Origin: an uncultured Porphyromonadaceae bacterium
GTDB lineage: Bacteria; Bacteroidota; Bacteroidia; Bacteroidales; Muribaculaceae
Assembly: GCA_948467675.1 (NCBI GenBank)
Contig: CAOKFI010000009.1
Span: forward strand, 1 to 64,000
Direction: 5' to 3'
Length of the DNA: 64,000 nucleotides
In this document: positions 2 through 60,983 of the stretch, piece by piece
Layout: the number at the start of each line of letters is the position of its first letter
Numbering within the stretch: the first letter of the stretch is position 1
Made by a program: the position numbers and the translations under genes
Notes under the pieces: model-generated
The model's database searches: none
What the model was told of the DNA's origin: nothing
The model's input: the letters and a program-made list of their open reading frames with translations, nothing else

Positions 2-1714
2 CTTCTCTACACCACTCCGGTTGACAGGCTGAAAAACGTGGAGATTATGTATTCAGCACCGGCTAAGTATCATGTCAACGGCGCTGTAATAAATGTGATT
101 CTGAAGACTCCTACGCCGTTTGATGGATTGCAGGGGCAGGTAAGAGCCGGATACAATCAGGCCCATTATGCCTCGTATGGTGGTGGCCTTGCCGCCACAT
201 ACGCAGTCAAGGACTTGACGTTTGATTTGAATTACGGGCTGTCGCGCACTAAGTCATGGAGCCGGGAGGAAACATGGTCGAATCATCTGCTTAACGGCGA
301 GCGGACAATGATTGAGGACGATATGCGGCACATCGGTCAGAACTGGCGCAATACCATATTTGCTTCTGCCGCGTGGAAAACGCTTAAACTGACTTATAAC
401 GGTCAGATAGTCTCCGATTCAAAGAGCTGGAGTCTGTCATCCGGGACACTTGGTGACTTTACAAATGCCTACAATATGCTGTCGCCTGTCGGCTATCATA
501 ATATAGCCTTGCGATATACCGCTCTGTTCGGGATGACAGTGGGAGGTGATTATACCAGCTATTCCGAGAACCGCTCACAGTCATTATTTAAGGATGCCGA
601 TTATCTGCTTGGCTCTGAAAACCGTCAGGAGATAAACCGCTGGCATGTGTATGTCGACCAGCAGCATCAGCTTGGCCAGTGGCAACTGAACTATGGCGTG
701 GAATATCAGTACTCGAAAGACCACAGTTCACAACATTATGGTGTCTTATCTGACAATCCGGATTTCGATGACATCCTTACCGAAGATGTGGCAAGTTTAT
801 ATGTTGGCACCCAACGGTCGTTCGACTGGGGGCTGTCGTTCAATGCTTCGGCAAAGGGTGAATATTATCACAACAAATATCAGCACAACTGGAATGTTAT
901 ACCTCAACTCGGGGCGACTTACTATAAGACTCCGAAAAGTATATTCCAGCTTAATCTGAGTACACAACGAATCTATCCATCATATTGGGAACTGCATGGC
1001 GGTAAAAGCCACATCAACGACTACTCAACAATTGTCGGCAACCCGCAACTTCAGCCGTATATCCAATACGACGCTCAGTTCAACTATATTCTTAGGCAGA
1101 AATATGTGGCGACACTTTATTTCCAGTATGGTGACAAAACCACAGTGCAGTTGCCTTACCAGTCTCCCGATGCGCGGAATCTTATATATCAGACCATCAA
1201 CATGAACTACAAGCGCGTGGCTGGACTTAATATTTACGCTCCTTTCGGAGTGGGATATATCTGGAACGCCACGGCTACTGCCAATGTGTTCAATCAGCGA
1301 GAGAAAGCCGACAAATTCCATGACATCAGTTTCGACAACAGCAAATGGATTTTCTACGGTGAACTTAGCAATTCCTTCAGGTTCAGTCAGAACAGCCCGA
1401 TATCAGTCACTGTGGATTTCAGCTATATCTCGCCATCATTGCAGGGCATTGCCGACCTGTCGTCTATCTGGAAAGTCGATGCCGGTGTCAAATGGCAGTT
1501 CGGCAAGAAGCGTTGCTGTGAACTTGATCTTAAAGCCGGTGACATATTCAACAAATGGGCTCCCACTATGACCATAAGCCATGCCGGCCAGGACTACCGG
1601 ATGAAAGTGCATGACATGACCCGTAATCTCAAATTGACATTCATCTGGCGTTTCAACGGATTCAAGCCAAAGAATACCGATATCGATACGTCGCGTTTCG
1701 GCACCGGTCAGTGA
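2..1714 (+). CDS. TonB-linked outer-membrane beta-barrel protein, 3' part (5' end outside window)
   Basis: The reading frame is open from base 2 with no stop upstream, so this is the C-terminal part of a larger gene that begins left of the window. The first visible residues (PVDRLKNVEIMYSAPAKY, then GAVINVILK) match the end of a TonB-receptor plug domain, where a GAVIN/GVINI-type strand closes the plug. The remaining roughly 540 residues are alternating aromatic and polar strands typical of the OMP_b-brl_3 barrel group. The protein ends in a charged tail rather than a terminal phenylalanine. Family knowledge: such proteins sit in the outer membrane, often without a known ligand. No SusD partner is visible beside it. 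The substrate cannot be named. Confidence 0.8.
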   Translation, partial: LLYTTPVDRLKNVEIMYSAPAKYHVNGAVINVILKTPTPFDGLQGQVRAGYNQAHYASYGGGLAATYAVKDLTFDLNYGLSRTKSWSREETWSNHLLNGERTMIEDDMRHIGQNWRNTIFASAAWKTLKLTYNGQIVSDSKSWSLSSGTLGDFTNAYNMLSPVGYHNIALRYTALFGMTVGGDYTSYSENRSQSLFKDADYLLGSENRQEINRWHVYVDQQHQLGQWQLNYGVEYQYSKDHSSQHYGVLSDNPDFDDILTEDVASLYVGTQRSFDWGLSFNASAKGEYYHNKYQHNWNVIPQLGATYYKTPKSIFQLNLSTQRIYPSYWELHGGKSHINDYSTIVGNPQLQPYIQYDAQFNYILRQKYVATLYFQYGDKTTVQLPYQSPDARNLIYQTINMNYKRVAGLNIYAPFGVGYIWNATATANVFNQREKADKFHDISFDNSKWIFYGELSNSFRFSQNSPISVTVDFSYISPSLQGIADLSSIWKVDAGVKWQFGKKRCCELDLKAGDIFNKWAPTMTISHAGQDYRMKVHDMTRNLKLTFIWRFNGFKPKNTDIDTSRFGTGQ

Positions 1715-1719
1715 CCCTG

Positions 1720-1793
1720 ACAGAACGAGGAGTAGCTGATATGCATGCATCAGCCACTCCTCGTTCTGTGTGTCGGGATCGTTATGTTTTTTT
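1720..1793 (+). terminator. Intrinsic terminator of the first barrel gene
   Basis: A 21-bp stem with one mismatch (1720-1740 with 1749-1769) and a self-complementary 8-base loop ATGCATGC is followed about 17 bases later by a seven-T run. It lies six bases after the stop codon and separates two convergent genes. The T run is only on the + side. Confidence 0.75.
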
Positions 1794-2715
1794 ACCATCG
1801 TGGAATTTCCAGCTCATCCTTTGACGGAAGTGCGGGGAATTTGGCATGTGGCTCTGTCTGATACCAGAATGTGGTCGATGAGATATCCGATTCCTGATTG
1901 TTGTATCGGCCGTCATGTCGCCATCCGAGATCCTGGATTGTGACTTTGAGATTTTTATCGAACCGGATAGGATCAAGTATATGCCAGCGGTATAGACCGA
2001 AAGCAGTGACGGCACGATACAGTCCGTCCGGACGGATTACTTGGTGCATTCCGGCGTATGGTGTTGTGAATTCCTGATATTGGCGGGTCTTTGGATTCTC
2101 GAAATTGTATGAGCCGCAGAAATAATCCTCGGCACCGGTGCCGCAGATGGTAGGATACTCTTTGTCTCCGTCCATGTAGAACTTAATCTCTCCTTCACCC
2201 CACCAACAGTTGTCATTGACTCTCCATGCCATATATGTGCCTACATACTGACCTTTACCTTTTACACCGTCGTTTTCGGCTGTGATTATGATGCGTCCGT
2301 CGGGCGCCTCCGTTATATGTGATATCTGGGTGTTGATGGTCTCGCCGTCAGGTGTCGTGCGGTTGAACTTTGACATACGTTCGGTATAAGGATCGTATAT
2401 GCAAGGTCCGTGCGAGGCGCTGACCCATATTTTGCCTGTGGAGTCTTCGAACAGTGTGTATATGAAACTACAGTCGGTATCTTCGTTGTCTACGTTTATG
2501 CGTCTGAACTTTGTGCCGTCGAAACGGTTGAGCCCGTCTTTGGTGGCAAACCAGATGAAACCTTGTCTGTCCTGCAGTATGTGATGGACTGTGTTCTGCG
2601 ACAGACCGTTTTTGATGTCGTAGTGCTGAAAGTAGAACTGTCTGGCCGATACGGCTGAATTCAAGGTCACGCTCAGTACTGCGGCTGTCAGCAGCCGAAA
2701 GATGCCCTGTCTCAT
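1792..2715 (-). CDS. Chimeric ORF: hybrid-sensor propeller N-terminus fused to GH172/DUF2961 C-terminus
   Basis: The 307-residue ORF joins two unrelated families. Residues 1-24 are a signal peptide and about 25-148 are the opening blades of the periplasmic propeller of a hybrid two-component sensor (GLSQNTVHHILQD, GFIWFATKDGLNRFDG, then two weaker blades). From about residue 150 the sequence becomes the C-terminal half of a DUF2961/GH172 enzyme (YVGTYMAW, WWGEGEIKFYMDG, GTGAEDYF). The acidic positions in the GEGE and GAEDY motifs, where the family's catalytic glutamates lie, are kept. Missing are the rest of the sensor (kinase, receiver, AraC domain) and the N-terminal half of the enzyme. It starts 15 bases after the GH43-type gene and may be co-transcribed. 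The simplest reading is an in-frame fusion left by a deletion near 2265-2275. Activity is doubtful because half of the sugar-hydrolase fold is absent. Confidence 0.75.
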   Translation of the reverse strand: MRQGIFRLLTAAVLSVTLNSAVSARQFYFQHYDIKNGLSQNTVHHILQDRQGFIWFATKDGLNRFDGTKFRRINVDNEDTDCSFIYTLFEDSTGKIWVSASHGPCIYDPYTERMSKFNRTTPDGETINTQISHITEAPDGRIIITAENDGVKGKGQYVGTYMAWRVNDNCWWGEGEIKFYMDGDKEYPTICGTGAEDYFCGSYNFENPKTRQYQEFTTPYAGMHQVIRPDGLYRAVTAFGLYRWHILDPIRFDKNLKVTIQDLGWRHDGRYNNQESDISSTTFWYQTEPHAKFPALPSKDELEIPRW

Positions 2716-2730
2716 GGTGGTCGGTTATGG

Positions 2731-3840
2731 TCAGTATGCTATTGTCTGCGGTTCGGTCGTGGGGCCGGTCACGGATAGTATGCCGGTGGAATCAATTTCC
2801 ATCCGGTCTATCAATACGACACGCTTTTCAGGCGCCGATGTCATGCGGCCGTGATATACTGTATACATATTGCCGTCGGGCATTGTAAGTGCCATGTTGT
2901 GGCCGGTTCCGATCACATTGCCGCCTTCGCTGCTGTTTTCTTTCAGTATAGGATTGGTCGATGATTTCTCGAACGGGCCTAACGGAGATTTCGATGTGGC
3001 ATATCCTACTGCGTAATTTCCGCCGAAGAAAGCGTTTGCGCTGTACATTATATAATATGTGTCTCCGTGGCGGAAGATGTATGAGCCTTCAGTCCATCTG
3101 CGCCCGGCTTCGCCGGCAGTCACCGAGCGGCTTTCCCATTCGGCCTGGACATCTGACAGCAGAGTCGGTGGAGCAAGCAGTCTGACCGGTTCGCCTACGA
3201 TTCCCGAGAAGTCGGGCAATAGCTCGGCTCCGTAGATCCAGCTCTCTTCGATCTCATCGTACATGCCGTCGGCTTTGGCTTTGGCGGCAATTTCGCTTTC
3301 TACAGGATGTTTGTAGCAGCAGCGAGAGAAATAGATGTAGTTTTTGCCGGTTGTGTCGTCGAACAGTACATTGGCATCGATCACAGGAAAATCGATTTCG
3401 AATACAGGCCGGTTGTACAGGTCGGTAAACGGCCCGGCCGGGGAGTCGGCCACTGCCACGCCGATTTTGAAGTTTTCGGCTTCGTCGGTCGGATTATGGC
3501 GGGAGTTTGCGCTGTAGAACATATAATAGCGTCCGTCGCGTTCGTATACCTCTGGAGCCCAGAAGCAGTCTGTGTTCCACTGTTCAGGTGTTCCACCGCG
3601 ATACACCTGTCCGAGATTCTGCCAGTCGGTTAGATTGTCGGACACGAATGCCTCGAATCCGTCGGCGAGCGATGTGCCGTACATGTAGTAACGGCCATCG
3701 GAGGCATGAAGCATGAATGGATCTCCCAGAGCCATCGGGAGCGGATTCGTGACTGTGGCCGTGCGTTGCTCTTTTACGCAGCCGCTTAATACGAGAGAAA
3801 GAAACGTGATAAATGAAATGATGGTTATTTTTGAATTCAT
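2731..3840 (-). CDS. GH43-type glycoside hydrolase lipoprotein
   Basis: The 369-residue protein begins with a lipoprotein signal (LVLSG followed by Cys21), so it is exported and lipid-anchored. The body is a five-bladed GH43-like propeller. The three expected acidic residues are visible: the base Asp40 in LGDPFM, the modulating Asp155 in VIDANVL, and the proton-donor Glu251 in WTEGSYIF. The WAPEV motif and SKSPLGPFE repeats are typical of the family. Members remove or cut arabinose- or xylose-containing chains; the exact substrate is not readable. A -7 box lies 20 bases upstream. The chimeric sensor/GH172 ORF follows it after 15 bases, which suggests a remnant carbohydrate-degradation locus. 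Confidence 0.88.
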   Translation of the reverse strand: MNSKITIISFITFLSLVLSGCVKEQRTATVTNPLPMALGDPFMLHASDGRYYMYGTSLADGFEAFVSDNLTDWQNLGQVYRGGTPEQWNTDCFWAPEVYERDGRYYMFYSANSRHNPTDEAENFKIGVAVADSPAGPFTDLYNRPVFEIDFPVIDANVLFDDTTGKNYIYFSRCCYKHPVESEIAAKAKADGMYDEIEESWIYGAELLPDFSGIVGEPVRLLAPPTLLSDVQAEWESRSVTAGEAGRRWTEGSYIFRHGDTYYIMYSANAFFGGNYAVGYATSKSPLGPFEKSSTNPILKENSSEGGNVIGTGHNMALTMPDGNMYTVYHGRMTSAPEKRVVLIDRMEIDSTGILSVTGPTTEPQTIAY

Positions 3841-57923: not shown

Positions 57924-59138
57924 TTAGAAACTGAACTGTATGCCGAATGTGTATTGGCGGGGCAGGGCATATGGGTAGCCGAGGCCTTCCGGATCTGCGC
58001 CGCTGTATTTTGTTATGGTAAACAGATTCTGTGCCTGGAAATATATGCGAGCGTTGTTGAGTGAGAGTTTATTCTGTATATGTTTCGGCAGTGAGTATCC
58101 TACGGATAGTGTTTTCAGGCGCAGGAATGAACCGTCTTCGATGTAGTATTCCGAACCTTCGCCTTCGCTGTTGGGATTGTCGATGGATGGAGCCGGGATT
58201 TCAGAGTCGTAATAACCGTTTTGCAGATAACCCTGATATGCGTTTGCCGCATCAAGAAGTTTTGTTCCGTGATTGCCGGTCCATAGCGGGAAGAAATCGG
58301 TGTAGTACTTGGCGTTGTTCCATGCATCGCGTACGATGCTGTTGAAGAACAGGCTGAGATCGAAATTTTTCCAGTTTGCGGCAAGATTGAGTCCGAACTG
58401 GGCTTTTGGCAGGTCTGTTCCGAGCCATGTGCGGTCCCTGTCACTGATCTCGCCGTCGCCATTGGTGTCGACGTAACGCAGACGTCCTACTGCCGGATTG
58501 CCGAAACTGATCTTGTATTTTGCTTTATAGGCGTCGACTTCGTCCTGTGTATGGAACACTCCGTCAGTCTTGTATCCCATCCATGATCCCAACGGCTGGC
58601 CTACGACACTTTTGTCTATACCGTTGCCTCCGCCCCATGTGTAATAGATATCATCCATAAGATCGGTAACCTTGTTTTTCATTGCGGTCACATTGAGTCC
58701 TATCTCGTAGCTGAAATCCTTGTTGACAGACTGGCGCCAGCTTGCCGTGATCTCTACGCCGTGATTGAGCATTTCTCCGCCATTGTACCAGCAGTATCCG
58801 CCTTCGCCGATAGTGGCGATGTAAGGTTTCTCCACCAGCATATTGTCGGTTTTTTTGTGGAAGTAATCGAACGAGAATGTCAGTCGGTTGTTGAGTACAG
58901 AGGCATCGAATCCGACATTGGTCTGATATGTTTTTTCCCATGTAAGATCCGGATTGGTGCTGCGAGAGCGGTATGCTCCGGGAGCCAGAGAGTTGCCTCC
59001 GGCTATCGCATAGCCGGCTTTGTCGAGATCGAGGGCGTATTTTGCGTAGAATGCATCGTTGGCTATGATGTCGTTGCCGTTCACACCGTAGGCGGCACGG
59101 ATTTTCAGATCAGAGAGCCAGCTGCGTGTGGCTTCCAT
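57924..59138 (-). CDS. SusC C-terminal fragment after the in-frame stop
   Basis: The 404-residue part from the first Met (59138) holds the second half of the barrel, ending with the terminal Phe. It lacks a signal peptide, so it would not be exported alone. Confidence 0.7.
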
Positions 59139-59216
59139 GAAATTTTCCTGAGAGATACGCCATCCGGCCGAGACGGAGGGAAACCAGTCGTAGTTATTGT
59201 CGGGCGACAGACGCGA

Positions 59217-60983
59217 TTATGCATCACGGCGCAGGGTAAACGATGCGAGGTATTTGTTGTCCCATGCATAGTTGATTTTGCCGAATACAGAGAACATCGA
59301 GTAATTGGATGCGCCGGAGCCGGTTTCCTTGTTGGAAGTCACATTGCCGAGATACAGGAAGTTTTCGTCTTCGATTTCAATCCCTTTGCCTTTGCCGTAC
59401 ATGTCTTCGAAATGGTTGCGTTTGGCTTCGATACCGAGCAATGCCATAATCGAGTTTTTGCCAAGATCGATATTGTACTGCGCCGTGTTGGTCCATACCC
59501 AGTCGGTAGTCTTGCTGGAATACTGGTAAAGTTCATTTGTCTTGTCACGGAGATTGGCCGGAACGAATGTCTTGTCGGCTCCGTTGTGGTAGTTTATACC
59601 GAAATTTGTCTTTACTATCAGGTTCCGGATCGGTTCGACAGAGAGATATACATTGCCGAACACACGCCAGTATTCGTGCTTGTTGGCTGATTCTTCCTGA
59701 ATCTGGCGCATGATATTGGGAGTGTCGTTGAGGCCGAAAGCCACCTGGTCGTTGAAGTTGCCTTCGGAGTCATAGACCGTGCGTGCGGGATGCATCTTGA
59801 TGGCGTTTTCCTCTGCGCCGCCGGGCATATTGTGTTGTCTCCACCAGTTTACGGCTACGTTGCCTCCGGCACGCAAGCGGTTGTTGATAAAACCATAGTC
59901 GGAACTGAAACGGGCATTGGCTTTCTGGAAGTCGGTACCTTTTACGATACCGTCGTGATCGAGCCAGCTTACGGATAATGAGGATGAGCCGTTCTCATCG
60001 CCTTTTGACAGTCCGATGCTGTATGTCTGCATCAGTGCCGTACGGTGTATCTCATCTTCCCAGTCTGTATTCTGCGGATTTACTACAACACCGTTAAGGT
60101 TGGTGTAGGGCTGAAGTTTGGGAGATAGTCCGTTTCCATACAGTTCGCTTGATGCGGGAGTTGTGCCGTAGGTGTATTTGTGGGCCGCCCAGTACACCTC
60201 GCCCCACTGGTCGGCATTGAGCATGTCGAGGCCGCTGTTGTATGTCTGCAATGTCAGTGTGGCATCGAAGGTGACACGGCATTCGCCTTTTTTAGCACGC
60301 TTTGTTGTGATTATGATCACACCGTTGGCAGCCTGAGCTCCATATATGGAAGCCGATGCGGCGTCCTTTAGAACCTGTATGGACTCGACATCGTTGCTGT
60401 TGAGAATAGTACCGGGGTTCTCACGGGTCATGATACCGTCTATTACATAGAGAGGGCCGTTGGCATCGCTGCGGAACGATGATGCGCCGCGTATCGATGT
60501 TCCGGTACTGAGACCGCCGGGCGTACCGTCTGTAGTGATGTTCATACCGGCTACGCGTCCTTGAAGCGATTGAATGACATTGCCTGTAGGTGTGTCGGCC
60601 ACATCTTTCATCTTCACTACCGAGACAGATCCGGTTAAGTCCGATTTCTTTTCGGCCGAGTAGCCTACCACTACAACTTCGTCGAGAATTTCGGAATTCT
60701 CTTTAAGCATGATGGTCATTTCTGGCTCTGCTTTCACAGTAACGGACTTGAAGCCTACGTATGATACCGTGAGCGATGATCCGGATGGAACTGTTATGAC
60801 AAAATTGCCGTCAATATCGGTGGCGACACCGTTTGCGCCTTTTCCGGAGGAAATCACGCTTGCTCCTATGAGGGGTTCGGAATCGGTGTCGGACAATACT
60901 GAGCCGTGAACCGTAATTTCCTGAGCGTGTACCGCTATCGTCATGACAAGCATGAGAAGGGTAATAAGGATTGGTTTTTTCAT
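59217..60983 (-). CDS. SusC N-terminal fragment up to the in-frame stop
   Basis: The 588-residue product would contain the signal peptide, carboxypeptidase-like domain, plug and only the first half of the barrel. Such a product is unlikely to fold in the outer membrane. Confidence 0.8.
   Translation of the reverse strand: MKKPILITLLMLVMTIAVHAQEITVHGSVLSDTDSEPLIGASVISSGKGANGVATDIDGNFVITVPSGSSLTVSYVGFKSVTVKAEPEMTIMLKENSEILDEVVVVGYSAEKKSDLTGSVSVVKMKDVADTPTGNVIQSLQGRVAGMNITTDGTPGGLSTGTSIRGASSFRSDANGPLYVIDGIMTRENPGTILNSNDVESIQVLKDAASASIYGAQAANGVIIITTKRAKKGECRVTFDATLTLQTYNSGLDMLNADQWGEVYWAAHKYTYGTTPASSELYGNGLSPKLQPYTNLNGVVVNPQNTDWEDEIHRTALMQTYSIGLSKGDENGSSSLSVSWLDHDGIVKGTDFQKANARFSSDYGFINNRLRAGGNVAVNWWRQHNMPGGAEENAIKMHPARTVYDSEGNFNDQVAFGLNDTPNIMRQIQEESANKHEYWRVFGNVYLSVEPIRNLIVKTNFGINYHNGADKTFVPANLRDKTNELYQYSSKTTDWVWTNTAQYNIDLGKNSIMALLGIEAKRNHFEDMYGKGKGIEIEDENFLYLGNVTSNKETGSGASNYSMFSVFGKINYAWDNKYLASFTLRRDA

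Follow-up and report, generated by a model that had tools for sequence, protein, structure and literature searches.

An in-frame chimera of a hybrid sensor gene and a GH172 gene that is very probably a deletion scar in a decaying PUL

The DNA analysed here is a stretch of 64,000 nucleotides (the window). On its minus strand, positions 1792–2715 hold a frame of 307 codons, open throughout, in which the N-terminus of a hybrid two-component sensor (HTCS) is joined to the C-terminus of a GH172/DUF2961 enzyme. Immediately upstream lies an intact GH43-family gene of 369 aa (2731–3840, minus strand; PF04616, E = 1.4e-53), which appears to be the retained start of a lost polysaccharide-utilisation locus (PUL). 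Its product is 84% identical to the GH43 protein of the related genome G117, the one encoded ahead of an intact HTCS there.

On the other side, a terminator-like inverted repeat with 21-nt arms that are 95% complementary (1720–1769) separates the chimera from a convergent gene for an outer-membrane beta-barrel protein (2–1714, plus strand), which is cut by the contig start. The repeat is likely a bidirectional terminator. The outer-membrane gene occurs in 81 of 397 genomes of the family (E ≤ 1e-60), and this patchy distribution, combined with best matches of 82–90% between genera, suggests horizontal transfer. Elsewhere on the contig, an in-frame stop interrupts a SusC-like gene (57924–60983, minus strand) and leaves frames of 588 and 404 aa. 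This gene, whose neighbours are a hybrid sensor and an intact SusD-like gene, may be a second decayed PUL transporter or the stop may be a sequencing error.

The HTCS-derived part (residues 1–148; 2272–2715, minus strand) comprises a signal peptide, the first two propeller blades and half of the third, as judged from the Reg_prop match, identities to HTCS proteins and modelled blade strands. Pfam places Reg_prop (PF07494) at residues 37–59 (E = 3.5e-12), with only the first two to three blades present, and residues 23–137 match the PDB sequences of the HTCS sensor domains 4a2l (E = 4.5e-32) and 3v9f (E = 1.2e-29). HTCS N-termini of relatives are 61% (G218), 58% (G117) and 50% (G173) identical to residues 1–148. 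The product therefore resembles the HTCS of Bacteroides PULs in its signal peptide and first blades (58–61% identity to the nearest N-termini). However, it stops after about 2.5 of the seven blades of one propeller, and it lacks the second propeller and the Y_Y_Y domain, as well as the membrane helix, HisKA/HATPase, receiver and AraC domains that are present in an intact HTCS (L123).

The GH172/DUF2961-derived part (residues 152–307; 1792–2262, minus strand) is likewise assigned to its own parent. The DUF2961 match in Pfam extends over residues 147–286 (E = 3.4e-47) and includes only profile positions 116–235 of 235, and residues 149–304 align with residues 198–353 of the exo-alpha-D-arabinofuranosidase 8ic8 among PDB sequences (E = 3.5e-56). 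Full-length GH172 proteins (391–393 aa) from other genera and families, for example those of G042, G027, G047 and Bacteroides, are 94–96% identical to the last 159 residues (149–307), and the DNA identity to G042 is 81.5%. These residues correspond to 235–393 of an intact homologue of 393 residues, or the last 40% of the enzyme. Both acidic motifs are kept, WWGEGE with E174 and GAEDYF with E196 and D197. In a Tannerellaceae MAG (L052, 7344–8531), the GH172 gene is itself split, with frames of 155 and 230 aa.

Because each half matches a different family in Pfam and among solved structures, the chimera is real in sequence rather than a chance resemblance. A preliminary description had proposed such an in-frame chimera, with an uninterrupted frame and both acidic motifs, and the open frame and the two sets of matches bear this out. 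Its assignment of residues 25–148 to the sensor holds, although the HTCS-derived span begins at residue 1 and includes the signal peptide; what it called the C-terminal half of the enzyme is indeed the C-terminal DUF2961 part, but not quite half of the protein. Its junction at about 2265–2275 is close to the one placed here.

We place the junction at codons 149–151, GACGGTGTA (Asp-Gly-Val; 2263–2271, minus strand), which in alignments with HTCS and GH172 relatives fit both parents. The DNA at the junction, AACGACGGTGTAAAAGGT, is compatible with the HTCS sequence AACGACGGTGTATAT (L129) and with the GH172 sequence GACGGAGTAAAAGGC (L124). Codon 148 (AAC, Asn) is HTCS-like, with NDGV or TDGV in HTCS relatives versus Ile, Leu or Val in GH172 relatives. 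Codon 152 (AAA, Lys) is GH172-like (DGVKGKG), and HTCS relatives have Tyr or Phe. The join thus appears to fall inside a shared stretch of roughly 6–9 bp, a candidate microhomology whose length is an estimate because the exact parental sequences are lost. No insertion sequence or long repeat was found at the join.

Both parents are intact in relatives. In genomes of the same family the locus order is GH43, HTCS (about 1,340 aa), SusC, SusD, SusE and an FG-GAP protein. An HTCS adjoining a GH43 gene and followed by SusC and SusD is found in five of these genomes (G117, G173, G042, G265 and G218), each with a SusC of 1,012 aa. Where the region after SusD can be read, it contains a gene in the SusE position and genes for an FG-GAP protein (about 645 aa), a BNR-repeat protein (about 671 aa) and a GH2-like protein. 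The HTCS frame is 1,324–1,353 aa in four of the five. In G218 (L127, contig C52, 13295–17422) the HTCS that belongs to this type of PUL has been divided into two frames (971 and 402 aa), which means that another relative too has a broken sensor; the GH43 gene neighbouring this HTCS is a different one. The distance from the GH43 stop to the start of the chimera is 15 bp, which puts that start at the position where the HTCS begins in relatives, and the GH43-HTCS stretch of G117 has 72% DNA identity to the window across 1,395 bp. The genus of this genome consists of one genome only, and no further copy of the locus was found in the genus of G117.

The GH172 gene is distributed differently. It is absent from the PULs of all five relatives, and in G042 it lies on a different contig from GH43-HTCS-SusCD, near biotin genes; in G047 and G067 it has another gene neighbourhood. 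However, Parabacteroides bouchesdurhonensis (L055) has GH172 adjoining a GH43 gene of the same type, and in L061, a Bacteroidales MAG, GH172 directly follows SusC-SusD-SusE-FG-GAP, one gene ahead of that GH43. These two arrangements make it plausible that GH172 was linked to the PUL in the ancestor. The search for an undeleted version, which the preliminary description had recommended along with alignment of each half to intact homologues, was successful for GH43-HTCS-SusCD, but no genome was found that holds that locus and this GH172 in one piece.

The pieces missing from the chimera were sought in its own assembly, which comprises 2.58 Mb in 60 contigs and is 99.92% complete and 0.03% contaminated. 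It contains no other DUF2961 sequence and no match to GH172 residues 1–233. The best match to the cognate SusC is 38% identical, as compared to 78–92% between relatives, and the best match to the rest of the HTCS is 32% identical, the level of a paralogue, as compared to 55–64% between orthologues. Thus, the genome keeps only GH43 and the two stubs, one of HTCS and one of GH172. The minimum loss is about 3.6 kb from HTCS and 0.7 kb from GH172; had the ancestor carried the usual genes between the two, it would amount to 10 kb or more.

With both parents intact in relatives that preserve the gene order, the missing segments absent from the genome itself and a short shared codon triplet at the join, the frame is very probably a recent deletion scar, a chimeric pseudogene in a decaying PUL. 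This was one of the two readings offered in the preliminary description. The ancestral PUL would have read GH43, HTCS, SusC, SusD and then SusE, FG-GAP and others on the minus strand, with GH172 further downstream in the same orientation. A deletion with its two ends in the Asp-Gly-Val codon triplet shared by the HTCS and GH172 genes would have removed about 1,200 HTCS residues, the genes for the transporter and GH172 residues 1–234, and the microhomology was presumably used in the join. The frame would have been kept by chance, an outcome expected in one third of such deletions. The result is similar to chimeric pseudogenes formed by deletion between short direct repeats, in which truncated parents are joined at a few shared bases and the middle is absent from the genome. 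It differs from them in being in frame and in having an intact signal peptide.

A simple deletion requires that GH172 was linked to the locus before the event. The same two stubs could instead have been brought together from distant loci, by translocation or inversion with loss. We regard this as unlikely, though it draws on the separation of GH172 from the PUL in Muribaculaceae-type relatives (G042, G047 and G067), and on the flank of the convergent outer-membrane gene, which contains no GH172 in nine of nine relatives checked; synteny of this gene did not place the left flank. Opposed to it are the linkages in L055 and L061, where GH172 lies by the same GH43 or in a SusC/D cluster, and the greater simplicity of a single deletion. 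A distant join would alter the mechanism but not the identification of the frame as a scar.

That the two halves were brought together only during assembly, from separate metagenome contigs, is improbable. In its favour are the division of the genome into 60 contigs and the distance of 2.3 kb between the junction and a contig end. However, the parents share no more than about 9 bp, which is less than any usual assembly k-mer, and the GC content around the join is smooth (0.47–0.50). Moreover, if the join were an artefact, the remainder of the HTCS together with SusC/D and the 5' part of GH172 should be present elsewhere as the true continuations; their absence from a 99.9%-complete assembly favours real loss.

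The retained part of the enzyme can be compared with characterized GH172 proteins, a family with alpha-D-arabinofuranosidase or alpha-D-fructofuranosidase activity. In alphaFFase1 (7v1v), jelly roll 1 consists of residues 3–200 and jelly roll 2 of residues 201–396, and the active site between protomers is formed by E270, E291, D292 and W267 with Tyr187 of the neighbour (PMC8605356). The catalytic Glu and the adjacent Asp have been shown to matter in DgGH172c, one of the DgGH172 exo-alpha-D-arabinofuranosidases (PMC10115798). The chimera shares with these enzymes and with 8ic8 its last 159 residues, in which the catalytic pair E174 and E196 and their neighbour D197 align with E270, E291 and D292 of alphaFFase1, and the W267 equivalent is also kept. 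In contrast to them it is without the first 234 residues. Its GH172 part starts at a position corresponding to about residue 246 of alphaFFase1, so that the counterparts of residues 1–245 are gone, among them the whole of jelly roll 1, the inter-subunit Tyr187 (Y199 of L124) and the beginning of jelly roll 2. In an AlphaFold2 model, most ten-residue blocks of the blades (residues 41–150) have pLDDT values of 85–94 and the GH172 part falls below 50, although an intact GH172 control with a shallow alignment reached only 50.6. From the domains that remain, we infer that the sensor cannot signal, having no membrane helix, kinase or receiver, and that the enzyme is unable to build its active site between subunits, leaving the product inactive. 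If translated, it would be exported by means of the HTCS signal peptide and would probably be degraded.

The sequence of the GH172 part has barely changed. It has a single private residue (K275E) and zero changes at sites that are invariant in relatives, and its nonsynonymous distance to G042 is 0.023, compared to 0.025–0.038 between intact enzymes. Even for the nearest GH172, synonymous divergence has reached saturation, and private residues were counted in place of dN/dS for most relatives. In simulated neutral substitution, the probability of a stop codon reaches 95% when about 0.08 changes per site have accumulated. This lack of decay makes the event look recent. Continued selection on the GH172 part would equally produce it, and a recent event is the simpler of the two explanations.

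The preliminary description had also considered a new secreted protein whose propeller replaces the missing half of the enzyme; the truncated propeller could alternatively serve as a binding module. The intact frame with no stop codon, the signal peptide, the retained E174, E196 and D197 and the lack of an excess of private residues are in keeping with a functional protein, but such a protein is very improbable: about 2.5 of seven blades are unable to close a propeller, the enzyme has lost Tyr187 and jelly roll 1 together with the first part of jelly roll 2, and no relative searched has the architecture. It is likewise very improbable that expression from the GH43 operon yields an exported fusion that folds and is sugar-binding or weakly active, with the HTCS blades stabilising the truncated GH172 domain.

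No second chimera was found among 397 genomes of the family, among 393 genomes of the order or, in a scan of 84,980 GTDB species that may leave out this genome's own record, among the best 80 of 464 matches. In addition, a literature search found no fusion of this kind. As far as could be seen in these genomes, the fusion appears to be private to this lineage.

The deletion scar is a product of ordinary genome decay and reveals no new system. Its host is a gut bacterium from which the greater part of a gene cluster for sugar use is gone, and the scar illustrates clearly that erosion of a PUL can yield an open, in-frame, secreted-looking chimera. Annotation pipelines would label such a frame as a DUF2961/GH172 enzyme or as a two-component regulator, and frames of this kind in MAGs should not be counted as enzymes or sensors.
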